Source: a virus
DNA length: 35,288 nt
Virus record (IMG/VR): IMGVR_UViG_3300028800_000222
Location: 1 to 35,288 of that record
Strand: one strand, 5' to 3'
In this document: positions 1 to 26,632 of the stretch, one piece after another
How the letters are laid out: the number at the start of each line of letters is the position of its first letter
Numbering within the stretch: position 1 is the first letter of the stretch
Program-made: the position numbers and the translations under genes
Notes under the pieces: generated by a model
Told to the model about the DNA's origin: nothing
The model's database searches: none
Seen by the model: the letters and a program-made list of their open reading frames with translations, nothing else

Positions 1-207
1 AGTAAAGAATTGAAATCATTAGAATTTATTGAGATCAAAAATGTTCCTACTCCCTCCGTTCCCTTCGCTTCACCCGAGCCTATTCAAGAAACATCTACAA
101 AATCAGTTTTCATTGATATAACCATTAACGAGGTAAAGTTCCAGTTACCATCTAATTTTTCTGCGGAAAGAATTACGAAGATTATACAATTTATTAAGGA
201 GTTATAA
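1..207 (+). CDS. IS66 TnpA-like protein, 3' part
   Basis: The reading frame is open to the window edge; the first possible internal start is TTG at 10, so the gene probably begins upstream. The C-terminal half (a short beta-rich stretch with ITINEVKFQLPSNF, then a helix ending in IIQFIKEL) matches the usual end of IS66 TnpA proteins, which have a hydrophobic strand, a 'lP.gf' motif and a final leucine-rich helix. The stop overlaps the next start by one base (TAATG), the standard IS66 coupling. The role of TnpA in IS66 transposition is accessory. Family assignment rests on this short tail and on the neighbour. Confidence 0.6.
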   Translation, partial: SKELKSLEFIEIKNVPTPSVPFASPEPIQETSTKSVFIDITINEVKFQLPSNFSAERITKIIQFIKEL

Positions 208-554
208 TGCTTTTGTCTTACACAAACAAAACTGTATACCTTGCTTCAAAATCTGTGGACTTTAGGATGTCTATAGATGGACTATCTTCTATAATTCAAC
301 GGGAAGCTAAAGATTTGCATGTACATGACGGAAGCATCTATGTTTTTTATAATCATGCTAAAGATAAAATTAAATGTCTATTTTGGGATAGAAATGGATT
401 TGTTTTATACTATAAGCGTTTGGATAAATGCAAATTTAAAATTAAAGACATGAGGGAAAATATAGAAAATATTACGCCTGAAGAGTTAGAAATATTATTG
501 TCTGGCCTTCATGCTCAGCCTTCCGCGCGCTTAATAGAACATAAAAAAGGTTGA
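207..554 (+). CDS. tnpB: IS66 accessory protein TnpB (Orf2 family)
   Basis: 115 residues, the normal length for IS66 TnpB/Orf2. Diagnostic motifs are present in order: VYLASKSVDFRMSIDGL near residues 10-27 (family pattern 'vDmRkgidGL'), IYVFYNHAKDKIKCLFWD near 44-61, GFVLYYKRLDKCKF near 64-77, and a final LEILLSGL. TnpB is needed for IS66 transposition but is not the catalytic transposase. The gene is intact, coupled to tnpA upstream, but has no tnpC after it, so it is unlikely to support movement by itself. Confidence 0.9.
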   Translation: MLLSYTNKTVYLASKSVDFRMSIDGLSSIIQREAKDLHVHDGSIYVFYNHAKDKIKCLFWDRNGFVLYYKRLDKCKFKIKDMRENIENITPEELEILLSGLHAQPSARLIEHKKG

Positions 555-6624: not shown

Positions 6625-6927
6625 CTAACTACCCCATGCAATATTAGTTGCTGTGGTTCCTGATGTATTAACTTGTATTGAAAAGATAGGGTGCCAAACG
6701 CCTGCAGCTAATCCGATTAAATCTTGTGTCGTGCCATCCCACTTGATATAAGAGACATTCCCAGTGACGCCAACGTACAGCCAGCGGGCAAATTCTACAC
6801 TATTATTATTACCGTACATGGTATCTAGCACAACCGTACCTGTACGGGCGACTCCTGCCATGACGCGGGTCGGGCCGGTATAGGCATTAGGGTCTAACGC
6901 TGGTACATTTATTAATTGAACAGCCAT
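6625..6927 (-). CDS. small phage virion protein (spike/decoration-like)
   Basis: 100 residues. The pattern FARWLYVGVTGNVSYIKWDG, then AAGVWHPIFSIQVNTSGTTA, fits a short beta-sandwich family common next to phage head and tail genes ('raiyvGgtGnvsv ... pvGs.lPi.v..v..sGTTA'). Those proteins are thought to be structural. It follows AAGGAGTAGTTAAC in the late operon, immediately after the collar-type fibre gene. Exact place in the virion is unknown. Confidence 0.6.
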   Translation of the reverse strand: MAVQLINVPALDPNAYTGPTRVMAGVARTGTVVLDTMYGNNNSVEFARWLYVGVTGNVSYIKWDGTTQDLIGLAAGVWHPIFSIQVNTSGTTATNIAWGS

Positions 6928-6944
6928 GTTAACTACTCCTTGTA

Positions 6945-8609
6945 TTATATTTTGATAAATACGTTCATAAAGCTTGTAGGCTGCATATTGCCATCATCAG
7001 CACCACGGACGTTTAATACCCCGGTTGCACCACCGCCTTGAGCTGCTATATTTAGTGCTGTAGCTGGGGAATTCGCAGCCGATGTCGTGAATCCAGTTGA
7101 ATTTGTGCCTTGATTACCAATGGCTAAACCTACTGTACTACCTGGATGGTTATGTGCCGGCATGCCAGCAATGGTTATAAATTCAGAACCTACGAATTCT
7201 CCTAAAGCTCTTGAGCTTAGTAATGCGCTATTTCCAGCAGCGGCTAAGGCACATCCTAGACTTCTAGTAAGGCTTAGTCTTTTGCCTAGCAAAAAGTCAG
7301 TTATAGCACTCGCCATGTCATTGCCTGGTGGCGTTCTAAGACCTGAGACGGGTGCCCAAGCATCTGATACGCAAGTGTAAAGAGTTGTATACAATTGGAA
7401 TGTTTGCATATTTGCATAGGTTGTCGCGCCTGAGTCTGCATTACCTATCGAGCCATCATCCATAGGCAACCATCCAAGAGGCGCTTTATTGGTCAGGCTT
7501 ACTCTAATATCGCCTGTGCGTGGGCTATCAGCAATTGTATTTATTTGATCGTAGGTATCGAAAGTGGTTGTTGGGATAACCTGACCTAGATATAGGCCTG
7601 GCTTTGTGAATGCTACATTGGAAGCCTGATTAAGGGGCATTTGTATTTGGATGTAAAGTGCATCGTCATTAGTTTGCAGACCTGGAGTTCCTAACGATTT
7701 TCCCGAAACATCAGGGATAGTGATAAATGCATTGTATTGCTTCCAGGATGAAGTCAATACCCACGTAGCTACTTGATTGCGAACTTCAGCACTTGCAGCA
7801 GTTCCAGAGCCAAAATATTGTCTGACCCATCCCGTAATTGTCCCAGGAGTTGTTGTATATTTTGCCCAAATAGACAATGTCATTTTTTGGTTAGAGAGAT
7901 TTTTTACTTTCTGGCAAATTGGAAATTGGAAGGCTTTGTATTGTTCACCTATAGGACTATTAGTACATTCGTAATTTACATATTCTGATGGTGTGACGTC
8001 AGGTATTAAAGCTGCATCTGACAGCAGAAATGTTGGGAATGTAATTTGATCAGTCGCAGGAGTTCCAATACCAGTATTTGTCACCAAACGAATGTCTCCT
8101 CCTAAGCCACCATTTGTGCCTACAAGAGGATTAACTAAAGCTGGTGTAAATCCCTTATGATTTGAAGGGGCAATGACAAGATTCCCTGATCCAATTGGGT
8201 TTGCGGTTGCGTCTATATGATCGATGAATTGGTTATTGCTAATAAAGTTTACAATGTTAACATTAACTGTTCCGCCACCTCCACCACCTCCGCCTGAACC
8301 TGGGGGGAAGTAATCTTGTATTGTGAAAAGTTCGGTTCCATCTGCTGCATTTATCTCTAGAAAATATGTATCATTGGGATTGGCAGAGTCTACTTCCCAG
8401 TAGAATGGCCCCTGTGTTCCGTTCGCATCAAAAATAATTGGATTAGGCCAAGCTTTATTACCAAATGGATCCATCCAAACCGCTTTATCTTCATCAAAAT
8501 TAAGATTACGTTTTGTTGCCATGGTAGCGCCGCCCGCTACGGTTCCGTCATTATTGATAAGAACCCATTTTGGGATTGGGGCTAAGAGATATGATATTGT
8601 TGATGCCAT
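6945..8609 (-). CDS. tail fibre with glycine hinge and tail-collar-like C-terminus
   Basis: 554 residues. The N-terminal 100 residues (LLAPIPKWVLINNDGTVAGG, then FEDKAVWMDPFGN-like and GPFYWEVDSANPNDTYFLEI segments) look like a compact virion-binding domain. A linker with eight glycines (about 105-112) follows, then a beta-rich middle. The C-terminal 180 residues resemble the phage tail collar fold (GWLPMDDGSIGNADSGATTY, AHNHPGSTV, and a final QPTSFMNVFIKI). It is probably the main fibre attached to the tail hub. ATG at 8609 is preceded by AAGGACTAG at a rather long distance. The N-terminal assignment is by inference. Confidence 0.75.
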   Translation of the reverse strand: MASTISYLLAPIPKWVLINNDGTVAGGATMATKRNLNFDEDKAVWMDPFGNKAWPNPIIFDANGTQGPFYWEVDSANPNDTYFLEINAADGTELFTIQDYFPPGSGGGGGGGGTVNVNIVNFISNNQFIDHIDATANPIGSGNLVIAPSNHKGFTPALVNPLVGTNGGLGGDIRLVTNTGIGTPATDQITFPTFLLSDAALIPDVTPSEYVNYECTNSPIGEQYKAFQFPICQKVKNLSNQKMTLSIWAKYTTTPGTITGWVRQYFGSGTAASAEVRNQVATWVLTSSWKQYNAFITIPDVSGKSLGTPGLQTNDDALYIQIQMPLNQASNVAFTKPGLYLGQVIPTTTFDTYDQINTIADSPRTGDIRVSLTNKAPLGWLPMDDGSIGNADSGATTYANMQTFQLYTTLYTCVSDAWAPVSGLRTPPGNDMASAITDFLLGKRLSLTRSLGCALAAAGNSALLSSRALGEFVGSEFITIAGMPAHNHPGSTVGLAIGNQGTNSTGFTTSAANSPATALNIAAQGGGATGVLNVRGADDGNMQPTSFMNVFIKI

Positions 8610-20121: not shown

Positions 20122-20379
20122 TTATGCTGCTGGTAAAACTTCTGGTGGTGTAACTTGATCAATTGTTGCTGGAGAATGCTTAAATATTTCCCAGTCGCTA
20201 GAGATTAAGTCTTCATAAGAAAATATGAAGTTGCCAGCGTTTGGAGATGGTGATAATACAATTTTCCATACATGAGCCATACCAGGCATTAAAGATAGAT
20301 ATCCGTCTTGCGGACTCCAGCCAGTTCTGTGCATTGCATCACCTAATTTTAAATGTTCTAACGCTTCACTTAACTGCAT
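20122..20379 (-). CDS. DUF2829 protein, Thoeris anti-defence Tad2-like
   Basis: 85 residues. It matches the DUF2829 pattern: LSEALEHLKLGDAMHRTGWS at the start ('f.eAl..lk.Gkk..R.gW'), a central strand pair (GYLSLMPG, HVWKIVLSPS), and the closing FSYEDLISSDWEIFKH ('DllA.DWei'). DUF2829 contains Tad2, a phage protein that binds the signalling nucleotide made by Thoeris TIR proteins and so blocks that defence. This copy has a shorter middle loop than typical members and a Pro-rich tail. ATG is placed by AAGGAGAAGTAAA. It lies in the packaging part of the late operon, not in an early anti-defence cluster. Family call is strong; sequestering activity is inferred. Confidence 0.75.
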   Translation of the reverse strand: MQLSEALEHLKLGDAMHRTGWSPQDGYLSLMPGMAHVWKIVLSPSPNAGNFIFSYEDLISSDWEIFKHSPATIDQVTPPEVLPAA

Positions 20380-23033: not shown

Positions 23034-23243
23034 TTATTTCTTCTTTTTGCCTAAGACTTTATCAGCCTTGGCGTCTATCTTTGCCTTGGTTGAAGGTGAT
23101 AGCTTGCCTTTGTGCTCCATTTCAGATGCTCTACTTTTGGCGTTTCTAGCGTGTGCTTTGTCAGGCATAGGGTACTTTTTCTCACCAGGTAGCCCAAATT
23201 CACCCTTGGGGATTTTCTTGCGTTCTTTCGTTGTTAACTTCAT
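23034..23243 (-). CDS. small conserved basic phage protein
   Basis: 69 residues: LTTKERKKIPKGEFGLPGEK, then KYPMPDKAHARNAKSRASEM and a KKKK end. The 'eFalPgerkYPi.DkaHArnAlaR' motif is widespread in phage proteins, often as a free short protein or a domain of larger ones; function unclear. It overlaps the end of the alpha-CTD-like gene by 44 bases in another frame, so its start codon lies inside that gene. Confidence 0.65.
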   Translation of the reverse strand: MKLTTKERKKIPKGEFGLPGEKKYPMPDKAHARNAKSRASEMEHKGKLSPSTKAKIDAKADKVLGKKKK

Positions 23244-23643
23244 TAGTCTCTTCCTTTAGTTTTAGTCCTAGCTTATCTAAATGATAAATAATTTCAGCGA
23301 TAGCTATAGTTGTAATGTGTTCTATGCCAATAATATCACTGCGTGTTCGTTCTACGAGTTCACCAACTTTCATTATACCTGCGTTCATGAGAGTGGTATA
23401 AACCGAAGGGGAGAGTCCTATCGCTGAAACTGGGGTAGAGAGTATGTTTGAGCCCTCTTGCTTCTCATCTATGTCATCCTCAGGAGTACTTTTAGATGAT
23501 CTTATGATCATCGATCTTAATACATTGATGTTTTCGTGAATTGTGAGGAAAGCTTTATTATCAGATGCTTGATAAGCACCAAACGCGAATAATGCTATGC
23601 CTTGGAGAGCACTGGGTAGATCGTCTTTTTTACTTGTATTCAT
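23200..23643 (-). CDS. RNA polymerase alpha C-terminal domain-like protein
   Basis: 147 residues. Residues about 70-131 (TPVSAIGLSPSVYTTLMNAG, IMKVGELVERTRSDIIGIEH, TTIAIAEIIYHLDKLGLKLK) line up with the alpha-CTD of bacterial RNA polymerase ('pv..LgLs....L..agI..vgeLv.rt..dLl.i.nlg.ks..EI...L...gL.L'), a helix-hairpin-helix fold that binds UP elements and activators. By eye, the Escherichia coli DNA-contact residues R265, N268, K271 and the GK loop are replaced here (S, T, M, and TTIA), so DNA binding may be lost and partner binding kept. The N-terminal 65 residues are unlike RpoA. It sits among packaging genes. Confidence 0.7.
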   Translation of the reverse strand: MNTSKKDDLPSALQGIALFAFGAYQASDNKAFLTIHENINVLRSMIIRSSKSTPEDDIDEKQEGSNILSTPVSAIGLSPSVYTTLMNAGIMKVGELVERTRSDIIGIEHITTIAIAEIIYHLDKLGLKLKEETNEVNNERTQENPQG

Positions 23644-25601: not shown

Positions 25602-25629
25602 TTGACATGCTGAAATGCTAATGTATAAT
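25602..25629 (+). promoter_or_regulatory. near-consensus early promoter P1 of the Lar operon
   Basis: TTGACA (25602-25607), 16 bases, TATAAT (25624-25629): both boxes perfect. It is followed by a short leader and the gene at 25665. The -10 box lies inside a palindromic 20-bp site shared with another early promoter, so control by a repressor is likely. Confidence 0.8.
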
Positions 25630-25664: not shown

Positions 25665-25877
25665 ATGAATCATTTTAATGAACAACTAGCAAGAATGTCT
25701 TACGAAGATGCTCTTTTATTCCCAGGAGCAGAGATTTCATGCCATGGTGTTGTGACAAAAGACCCTAATTGTAAAATGATGTCTTATTACAAATCAAAGC
25801 CAGGATTGCCGACATGCGGGCTGCAGGCAATGTCAGATGCAGAAATTCGTGATATAGCATTACATCAAGATGAATAA
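25665..25877 (+). CDS. unknown early protein, first gene of the Lar operon
   Basis: 70 residues: NHFNEQLARMSYEDALLFPG, then a central stretch with GVVTKDPNCKMMSYYKSKPG and an acidic end. ATG is preceded by AGAGAGATAAGAAA, almost the same initiation sequence as the next gene's. No family recognised. Its place under a strong regulated promoter, just before a restriction-alleviation gene and near a CRISPR-repeat-like element, makes an anti-defence role possible but not shown. Confidence 0.65.
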   Translation: MNHFNEQLARMSYEDALLFPGAEISCHGVVTKDPNCKMMSYYKSKPGLPTCGLQAMSDAEIRDIALHQDE

Positions 25878-25894: not shown

Positions 25895-26158
25895 ATGACT
25901 GAACTACTACCATGCCCGTTTTGTGGAAATGAAGAAAACAATGGAATTTGTTGGAAAAGTGATAATTATGTTTGCGTATGTTGCGGATCTTGTGGAGCTG
26001 AAGGGGCTAATCAGGAAGACGAAGAAGAAGCAATAAAATCATGGAACACTAGAGCAAGATTGAATCACGAAGCAGAATTCTTTCAGGGATGTTTGTACAC
26101 AAAATATGCAATTAAAGAAGCTATTGATAAATTAAAAACATGGGAAAAGCCATTTTAA
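25895..26158 (+). CDS. Lar-family restriction alleviation protein
   Basis: 87 residues. The N-terminal 55 match the Lar zinc-ribbon family: LLPCPFCGNEENN with CPFC at 7-10, then YVCVCCGSCGAEGANQ with the second cysteine pair at about 30-33, then EEEAIKSWNTRARL ('teeeAi.aWNrR'). Rac prophage Lar lowers restriction by type I enzymes; many phage homologues are known only by similarity. A second, helical part (YTKYAIKEAIDKLKTWEKPF) follows. The initiation region CAGGAGATAAGAAAATG is shared with two other genes. Last gene of the P1 operon. Confidence 0.8.
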   Translation: MTELLPCPFCGNEENNGICWKSDNYVCVCCGSCGAEGANQEDEEEAIKSWNTRARLNHEAEFFQGCLYTKYAIKEAIDKLKTWEKPF

Positions 26159-26169
26159 GAAAATGAATA

Positions 26170-26187
26170 GGGCTCAATCAAGAGCCC
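26170..26187. terminator. hairpin after Lar gene / at the end of the candidate small RNA
   Basis: GGGCTC (26170-26175) and GAGCCC (26182-26187) with a 6-base loop. On the minus strand it is followed by a pyrimidine-rich UAUUCAUUUUCUU, so it could end the candidate small RNA; on the plus strand it lies just 11 bases after the Lar stop but has no U run. Confidence 0.5.
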
Positions 26188-26228
26188 CATACCTGCTTAT
26201 TCAACAGATAACTATGCATATCTCGTTT

Positions 26229-26260
26229 GTTTCAATCCACGCGCTAGGAGAAGCGCGAAC
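26229..26260 (-). CRISPR. single CRISPR repeat-like element, type I-C-like
   Basis: A 32-base unit. Read on the minus strand it begins GTTCGCGCTTCTCCTAGCGC and ends CGCGTGGATTGAAAC. Type I-C repeats are 32 bases with a stem of GC-rich halves and the 3' handle GTGGATTGAAAC; the terminal 16 bases GCGCGTGGATTGAAAC are fully of that type, and the stem CGCGCT/AGCGCG is perfect. No second copy is seen within a spacer length on either side, no cas gene is present, so it is not an ordinary array. Similar solitary repeats in phages are known as RNA anti-CRISPRs. Confidence 0.65.
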
Positions 26261-26293
26261 TATCAATTCCCTCCAGCTTGGAGGTTAACGCAA

Positions 26294-26325
26294 GAATCAT
26301 ATATAAAAATGATTCAGTTTTTTTC
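26294..26325 (+). terminator. Rho-independent terminator of the Lar operon
   Basis: GAATCAT (26294-26300) and ATGATTC (26309-26315) form a 7-bp stem, followed by AG and seven T (26318-26324). This is the only classical terminator with a long T run in the region. The same stem would also fold in the opposite-strand RNA. Confidence 0.65.
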
Positions 26326-26363
26326 TAAGCTTTCAGCATGAAAGTTAACATTACAACCCGCGC

Positions 26364-26391
26364 ATTATATCTCAAAATACAAAGAAATCAA
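26364..26391 (-). promoter_or_regulatory. minus-strand promoter upstream of the CRISPR-like repeat
   Basis: Minus-strand TTGATT (26391-26386), 16-base spacer, TATAAT (26369-26364). The -10 is perfect and the -35 matches 4 of 6. There is no gene immediately downstream on that strand, which supports a non-coding product. Confidence 0.5.
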
Positions 26392-26399
26392 ATAATAAA

Positions 26400-26421
26400 T
26401 AGCCCTACGTTAATAGGGCTA
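26400..26421. repeat. hairpin upstream of the small-RNA promoter
   Basis: TAGCCCTA (26400-26407) and TAGGGCTA (26414-26421) form a perfect 8-bp stem. It overlaps a second possible fold with AGTGGC just downstream. On the minus strand it is upstream of the candidate promoter and could end readthrough from the lysis operon. Confidence 0.5.
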
Positions 26422-26632
26422 CTAGGAGTGGCTCTTTCTGAAAATCTACAATAAAAGCGACAAAATAAAACCGTATGCGATAACTATATTCTGTCTCATT
26501 TATATCATAACTCAAAAAGTTAAATAGTCAAACGCTGTTATCAACAACCAGGGCAAACCTACACTAGATGCAAATATTAATGCCAAACTGCTATAAAAAT
26601 ACTTATCCTTCATTCTCCCTAACCCCTTTCCA

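Follow-up and report, generated by a model that had tools for sequence, protein, structure and literature searches.

To our knowledge, the known RNA anti-CRISPRs are solitary repeats, each directed against one subtype. In the tested examples, RacrIF1 and RacrIC1, a phage small RNA carries a repeat hairpin with a handle (Camara-Wilpert 2023, PMC10651486). RacrIC1, RacrIF1 and even a non-targeting crRNA inhibit, and the C6G/G20C mutation in RacrIF1 abolished both Cas6f binding and inhibition (PMC10651486). SRUFinder accepts matches to known repeats from 90% identity upwards (PMC10651486) and drops repeats that are clustered within 100 bp or accompanied by a similar flanking repeat (PMC10651486). 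Viral CRISPR mini-arrays of the archaeal SPV1/SPV2 type are repeat-spacer-repeat modules without cas genes (PMC11656645), and the effector-binding protein AcrIE4-F7 is an anti-CRISPR fusion directed against I-E and I-F (PMC8887544).

The DNA analysed here, referred to below as the window, is the whole 35,288-nt stretch of the IMG/VR virus record IMGVR_UViG_3300028800_000222. Its minus strand contains a predicted RNA unit that resembles the Racrs in being a phage small RNA with a repeat hairpin and handle, in its intergenic position directly after a promoter and in that no cas genes were found; I-F and I-C, whose repeats it resembles, are both subtypes with tested Racrs (PMC10651486). Unlike in the Racrs, one RNA holds units of two subtypes, with a repeat-spacer-repeat module instead of a solitary repeat as its I-F part. 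This module is shared with the SPV1/SPV2-type mini-arrays, but here the repeats are non-identical, the spacer is self-folding and without a known target, and the module is joined to the repeat of another subtype. Like AcrIE4-F7, the RNA is a single product that apparently targets two CRISPR subtypes, although it is an RNA repeat mimic and not a protein. No description of mixed-subtype Racr RNAs was found in the literature searched, subscription papers and the supplements of PMC10651486 lying outside its scope. By analogy with the tested Racrs, it is probable that one autonomous small RNA mimics both I-F and I-C repeats and serves as a decoy against both systems.

Genomic Setting of the RNA Unit

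The phage is a podovirus with a P22-like portal (at most about 26% identity to known phages), a P22-type coat and a GC content of 40%. A comparison of the locus DNA with phages and E. coli gave no similarity. A region resembling the C-terminal domain of the RNA polymerase alpha subunit is encoded at 23200–23643 on the minus strand (PF03118, 4e-7) and possibly belongs to a transcription takeover factor. The RNA unit adjoins a plus-strand gene pair with the following features:

25602–25629, plus strand: promoter TTGACA-16-TATAAT of the gene pair (found by scan, 12/12)
25665–25877, plus strand: 70-aa ORF of no known family, the first gene of the cassette
25895–26158, plus strand: gene of a Lar-type restriction alleviation protein (PF14354, 42.5 bits, over the cut-off; phrog_599, 1.9e-11)

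The original prediction had placed the RNA beside a Lar gene and noted the absence of cas genes. The PF14354 match bears out the former; as to the latter, cas families were not found among the phage proteins scanned, a set that did not comprise every small ORF.

A search of IMG/VR for terminase relatives found 145, of which 80 were fetched. The gap between TerS and the endolysin gene is 1402 bp in the present phage versus about 40–540 bp, mostly near 270 bp, in most relatives, where it contains a holin gene. Four relatives (L015, L017, L026 and L045) possess a DNA methyltransferase gene in the same slot, between holin/endolysin and the small terminase, and most of these methyltransferases, as read from the translations, have a ParB-like N-terminal part. 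Because these four carry DNA methyltransferases there, the slot appears to receive counter-restriction genes. In the present phage it is occupied by the 70-aa ORF, the Lar-type gene and the RNA unit, and in these five phages it looks like a counter-defence hotspot. A Tad2-like gene, probably a Thoeris anti-defence gene, is located at 20122–20379 on the minus strand (PF11195, 32.4 bits, over the cut-off). By association, the Lar gene, the slot and the Tad2-like gene support a counter-defence role of the RNA.

Predicted Transcription Unit and RNA Fold

The RNA unit is intergenic, lies behind a promoter and has a terminator-like hairpin at either side:

26398–26423, minus strand: upstream terminator-like hairpin AGTAGCCCTATTAACGTAGGGCTATT with a T-rich tail, 11 pairs
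26364–26391, minus strand: sigma-70-type promoter TTGATT-16-TATAAT (found by scan, 10/12 consensus matches)
26167–26190, minus strand: closing terminator-like hairpin GGGCTC-TTGATT-GAGCCC with a T-rich tail (found by scan)

Transcription presumably starts near 26357. Since terminator-like hairpins flank the unit, it appears to be insulated on both sides, and the upstream hairpin would shield it from the minus-strand lysis genes. The minus-strand promoter and the closing hairpin (26190–26167), both named in the original prediction, were thus recovered by the scans, and the autonomous transcription unit proposed there is likewise predicted from the promoter and terminator-like hairpins detected.

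The RNA folds more stably than shuffled sequences (z −2.8). In the computed fold of a 198-nt transcript, all hairpins coexist with pair probabilities of about 0.8–1.0, and the outermost pair of the I-C stem has a probability of 0.43.

Type I-F Repeat Units and the Spacer

In type I-F arrays, a 28-nt repeat and a 32-nt spacer make up a period of 60 nt. The 5′ part of the RNA has the same arrangement:

26349–26322, minus strand: unit 1, a 28-nt mimic of a type I-F repeat, GTTAACTTTCATGCTGAAAGCTTAGAAA, which forms the 5′-most hairpin of the RNA
26290–26321, minus strand: spacer of I-F length, 32 nt, self-complementary (GAATCAT/ATGATTC, a perfect 7-bp stem)
26289–26262, minus strand: unit 2, degenerate I-F-type repeat GTTAACCTCCAAGCTGGAGGGAATTGAT with the geometry of unit 1

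Unit 1 has the geometry of a type I-F repeat, namely a 5-nt lead, a 5-bp stem with a 5-nt loop, the pair C6-G20 and the handle CTTAGAAA; 6e-4 such units are expected by chance per window. A scan against 4227 Rfam families placed CRISPR-DR4 (positions 1–28 of 28) on 26349–26322 with an E value of 0.3, below the gathering score, and the whole window gave no Rfam match at gathering cut-offs. The published Legionella pneumophila I-F repeat, GTTCACTGCCGTACAGGCAGCTTAGAAA, which may not be that of the host, is identical to unit 1 at 20 of 28 positions. Unit 2 starts exactly 60 nt past the start of unit 1. It is without the I-F handle, is identical to the L. pneumophila repeat at 12 of 28 positions and to unit 1 at 16 of 28, so that the two are not the near-identical repeats of a viral mini-array. 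The stem of unit 2 nevertheless remains paired, two U-A pairs of unit 1 being replaced by C-G.

The I-F stems were aligned for five sequences: units 1 and 2, the published Legionella repeat and the two I-F repeats of L073, a terminase relative. All 25 stem cells are paired, three of the five pairs covary and C6-G20 is invariant, and this whole pattern is lost when the pairing register is shifted. Conservation that would be driven by selection is seen only by way of these analogous I-F stems. A 7-bp stem like that of the spacer occurs in 1.2% of random window segments, and in the 198-nt transcript the computed pair probability of the spacer stem is at least 0.97.

The three 5′ hairpins of the original prediction are therefore present, but two of them are I-F-type repeat units and the third is formed by the self-complementary 32-nt spacer. 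The description of the I-C repeat as solitary does not hold, because the same RNA opens with a type I-F repeat and has a second I-F-type hairpin at the 60-nt period.

Type I-C Repeat Unit

The I-C unit begins after a gap of 1 nt from unit 2:

26260–26229, minus strand: type I-C repeat mimic GTTCGCGCTTCTCCTAGCGCGTGGATTGAAAC, 32 nt, read directly from the sequence
26188–26228, minus strand: 41-nt tail 3′ of the I-C handle, containing the hairpin TATCTGTT/AGCAGGTA

The 6-bp stem of this unit (CGCGCT/AGCGCG) encloses a loop of 6 nt and is followed, with zero gap, by the I-C handle of 11 nt, TGGATTGAAAC. Cleavage by Cas5c is predicted between 26240 and 26239 and would produce the 11-nt handle. In random sequence from an order-1 model with the dinucleotide composition of the window (120 Mb), the handle by itself occurred 148 times and not once with a 6-bp stem flush against it; about 2e-4 complete I-C units are expected by chance per window. 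The Rfam scan that placed CRISPR-DR4, which covered a 251-base stretch, also aligned CRISPR-DR9 in full length with 26263–26229 (E 0.1, below the gathering score). The unit is identical at 21 of 32 positions to the published L. pneumophila I-C repeat, which may not be the repeat of the host. Among the four sequences available for the I-C stem there is no significant covariation, in part owing to a one-base offset of the published I-C repeat. A comparison of the unit with plasmids and phage records gave matches at chance level only. The tail hairpin TATCTGTT-GAATA-AGCAGGTA, which has the loop GAATA as in L073, was considered as an extra I-F-like unit and was too weak to claim.

The 32-nt I-C-like repeat with its stem and complete handle is thus present as first described. 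Exactly one I-C repeat was found in the window, and not the two that an I-C array comprises, so that the statement about the lack of a second repeat stands for I-C and fails for the RNA as a whole, which contains the I-F-type units. A decoy is still the best explanation of the RNA, but the target is probably two systems and not I-C only, because of the I-F repeat and the second I-F-type hairpin at the 60-nt period. It is highly improbable that the RNA is a decoy for I-C alone whose 5′ hairpins merely stabilise the structure. No other part of the RNA is as clean as the I-C unit, and the 5′ hairpins could protect the RNA, but the first hairpin matches the I-F geometry, the handle and C6-G20 exactly, CRISPR-DR4 falls on the same hairpin, even if below the gathering score, and unit 2 stands at the I-F period.

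Occurrence in Related and Other Viruses

Two further records represent the same phage and contain the intact unit, L082 (99.98% identity over 4.4 kb, from another sample) and L096 (100%). No diverged relative carrying the same cassette was found in IMG/VR. Apart from the same phage, IMG/VR contains no relatives of the Lar protein above 43% identity.

It is very unlikely that the RNA unit is a functionless, decaying fragment of a host CRISPR array acquired via recombination. The degenerate state of unit 2 agrees with such an origin, as do the low identities to the published L. pneumophila repeats. A relic, however, would not bring the repeats of two subtypes to within 1 nt of each other inside a stretch bounded by a promoter and terminators, nor would it preserve stems through paired changes, and all three records have the unit intact.

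A pattern scan of 43 related virus records for I-F and I-C repeats found a true I-F repeat in L073 only and an I-C repeat in none. L073, whose terminase is 62% identical, has a double I-F repeat at 7301–7232 on the minus strand, consisting of AATAACTGCCGAATAGGCAGCTTAGAAA, a 14-nt spacer and ATTCACTGCCGAATAGGCAGCTATATAT, with Rfam E values of 7e-6 and 8e-4 for the repeats. It adjoins the endolysin gene of L073, and a TATACT box is located upstream of the repeats. In an apparently independent parallel to the present phage, the first repeat has the handle and the second has the hairpin only. A normal guide would not fit into the 14-nt spacer; possibly, the double repeat is a truncated decoy crRNA. 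The Cas6f-trimmed look-alikes of crRNA would be unlikely to target anything, the guide being truncated in L073 and self-folded in the present phage. Downstream of its repeats, L073 also has a 96-aa ORF of no known family (6923–7213), which is possibly an acr gene.

Scans of IMG/VR for an I-F handle with an I-C handle after it returned 16 and 15 stretches; for the opposite order there were two. Both repeat hairpins were present only in the records of this phage; the other handle-pair matches lacked them on inspection and were attributed to chance. These results bear on the reading of the RNA as a phage small RNA of regulatory or structural function whose resemblance to CRISPR is accidental, which is extremely improbable. 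The RNA is indeed a well-folded small RNA between genes and its Rfam CRISPR matches are below the gathering score. Against this stand the joint probability of both units in one transcript, which is far below 1e-6, and the restriction of the I-F and I-C handles with both hairpins to this phage in IMG/VR.

An unrelated virus, the 68.6-kb L099, contains a lone I-C unit, CTTCGCGCTTACCTAAGCGCGTGGATTGAAAC, at 546–515 on the minus strand, identical to GTTCGCGCTTCTCCTAGCGCGTGGATTGAAAC at 27 of 32 positions. It is flanked by the 8-bp inverted repeats ACAATCTC/GAGATTGT, and TACAAT occurs just upstream.

Guide Sequences

No protospacer for the I-F spacer was found in 50,697 phage records, the window and the fetched loci, and the best PAM and seed matches in a seed search of IMG/VR reached 20 of 32 positions. 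The I-C tail likewise had no credible protospacer in the same phage records, window and fetched loci or in the IMG/VR seed search. Since no credible protospacer was found for either guide, a targeting mini-array becomes less likely.

According to that explanation, the I-F repeat-spacer-repeat would supply a guide that turns the I-F system of the host on a competitor, and the I-C repeat would supply a second guide. The exact 60-nt period and the 32-nt spacer would indeed give a full-length crRNA, and viruses are known to carry mini-arrays directed against their relatives (PMC11656645). Besides the lack of protospacers, the I-F spacer is self-folding, a second repeat is missing from the I-C part, and units 1 and 2 differ as described above, whereas the repeats of reported mini-arrays are identical to those of the host (PMC11656645). 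A working viral mini-array is therefore considered unlikely.

Proposed Mode of Action

The dual decoy RNA would span about 190–200 nt, from 26357 to about 26160. The Cas6f of a host I-F system would bind units 1 and 2 and cut after G20 of each, at 26330 and 26270, releasing a 60-nt look-alike of crRNA composed of the handle CTTAGAAA, the 32-nt self-folded guide and a 3′ hairpin. This product would occupy Cas6f, Cas7f and perhaps Cas5f/Cas8f, and would find no target. The Cas5c of a host I-C system would bind and cut the I-C unit to leave the 11-nt handle on a structured tail, which would in turn occupy Cas5c/Cas7c. In this way, the I-F and I-C effectors would be kept off real crRNAs early in infection. 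The case for such a function is made by anatomy, spacing, setting and analogy with the tested Racrs, and it is from these that we infer that the RNA is expressed, binds Cas proteins and inhibits them, and that the host has both systems.

The repeat units (26349–26322, 26289–26262 and 26260–26229) lie within 100 bp of each other and are not solitary repeats. Because the solitary-repeat definition fails, the RNA unit is better regarded as a composite variant that would work like a Racr. Composite loci of this kind are excluded by SRUFinder, since clustered or flanked repeats and those of less than 90% identity are discarded.

Phages may well evolve composite anti-CRISPR RNAs in which a decoy crRNA with a self-folding or truncated guide is combined with a repeat mimic of another subtype. 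If true, one small gene would disarm hosts with one or both of the systems concerned. It would also show that repeat mimicry is stackable, like fused protein Acrs, and existing surveys, which drop clustered repeats, would be undercounting RNA anti-CRISPRs. A composite RNA would also predict hosts with I-F and I-C together.

Host Prediction

Alignment of the terminase with 84,980 genomes yielded two contigs, L100 and L101, in Planctomycetota and Thaumarchaeota MAGs. Both are implausible bins for such contigs, which were judged to be mis-binned, probably through contamination; no Csy4 match was found in either MAG. A comparison of plasmid spacers with the phage by 28-base words gave no match. 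The IS66 TnpB gene near the left end of the window (207–551, plus strand) has its top-listed plasmid match in Legionella israelensis, at only 46.5% identity. Together with the occurrence of both I-C and I-F in some Legionella pneumophila and the 40% GC of the phage, this gives a hint of Legionella as the host, short of an assignment.
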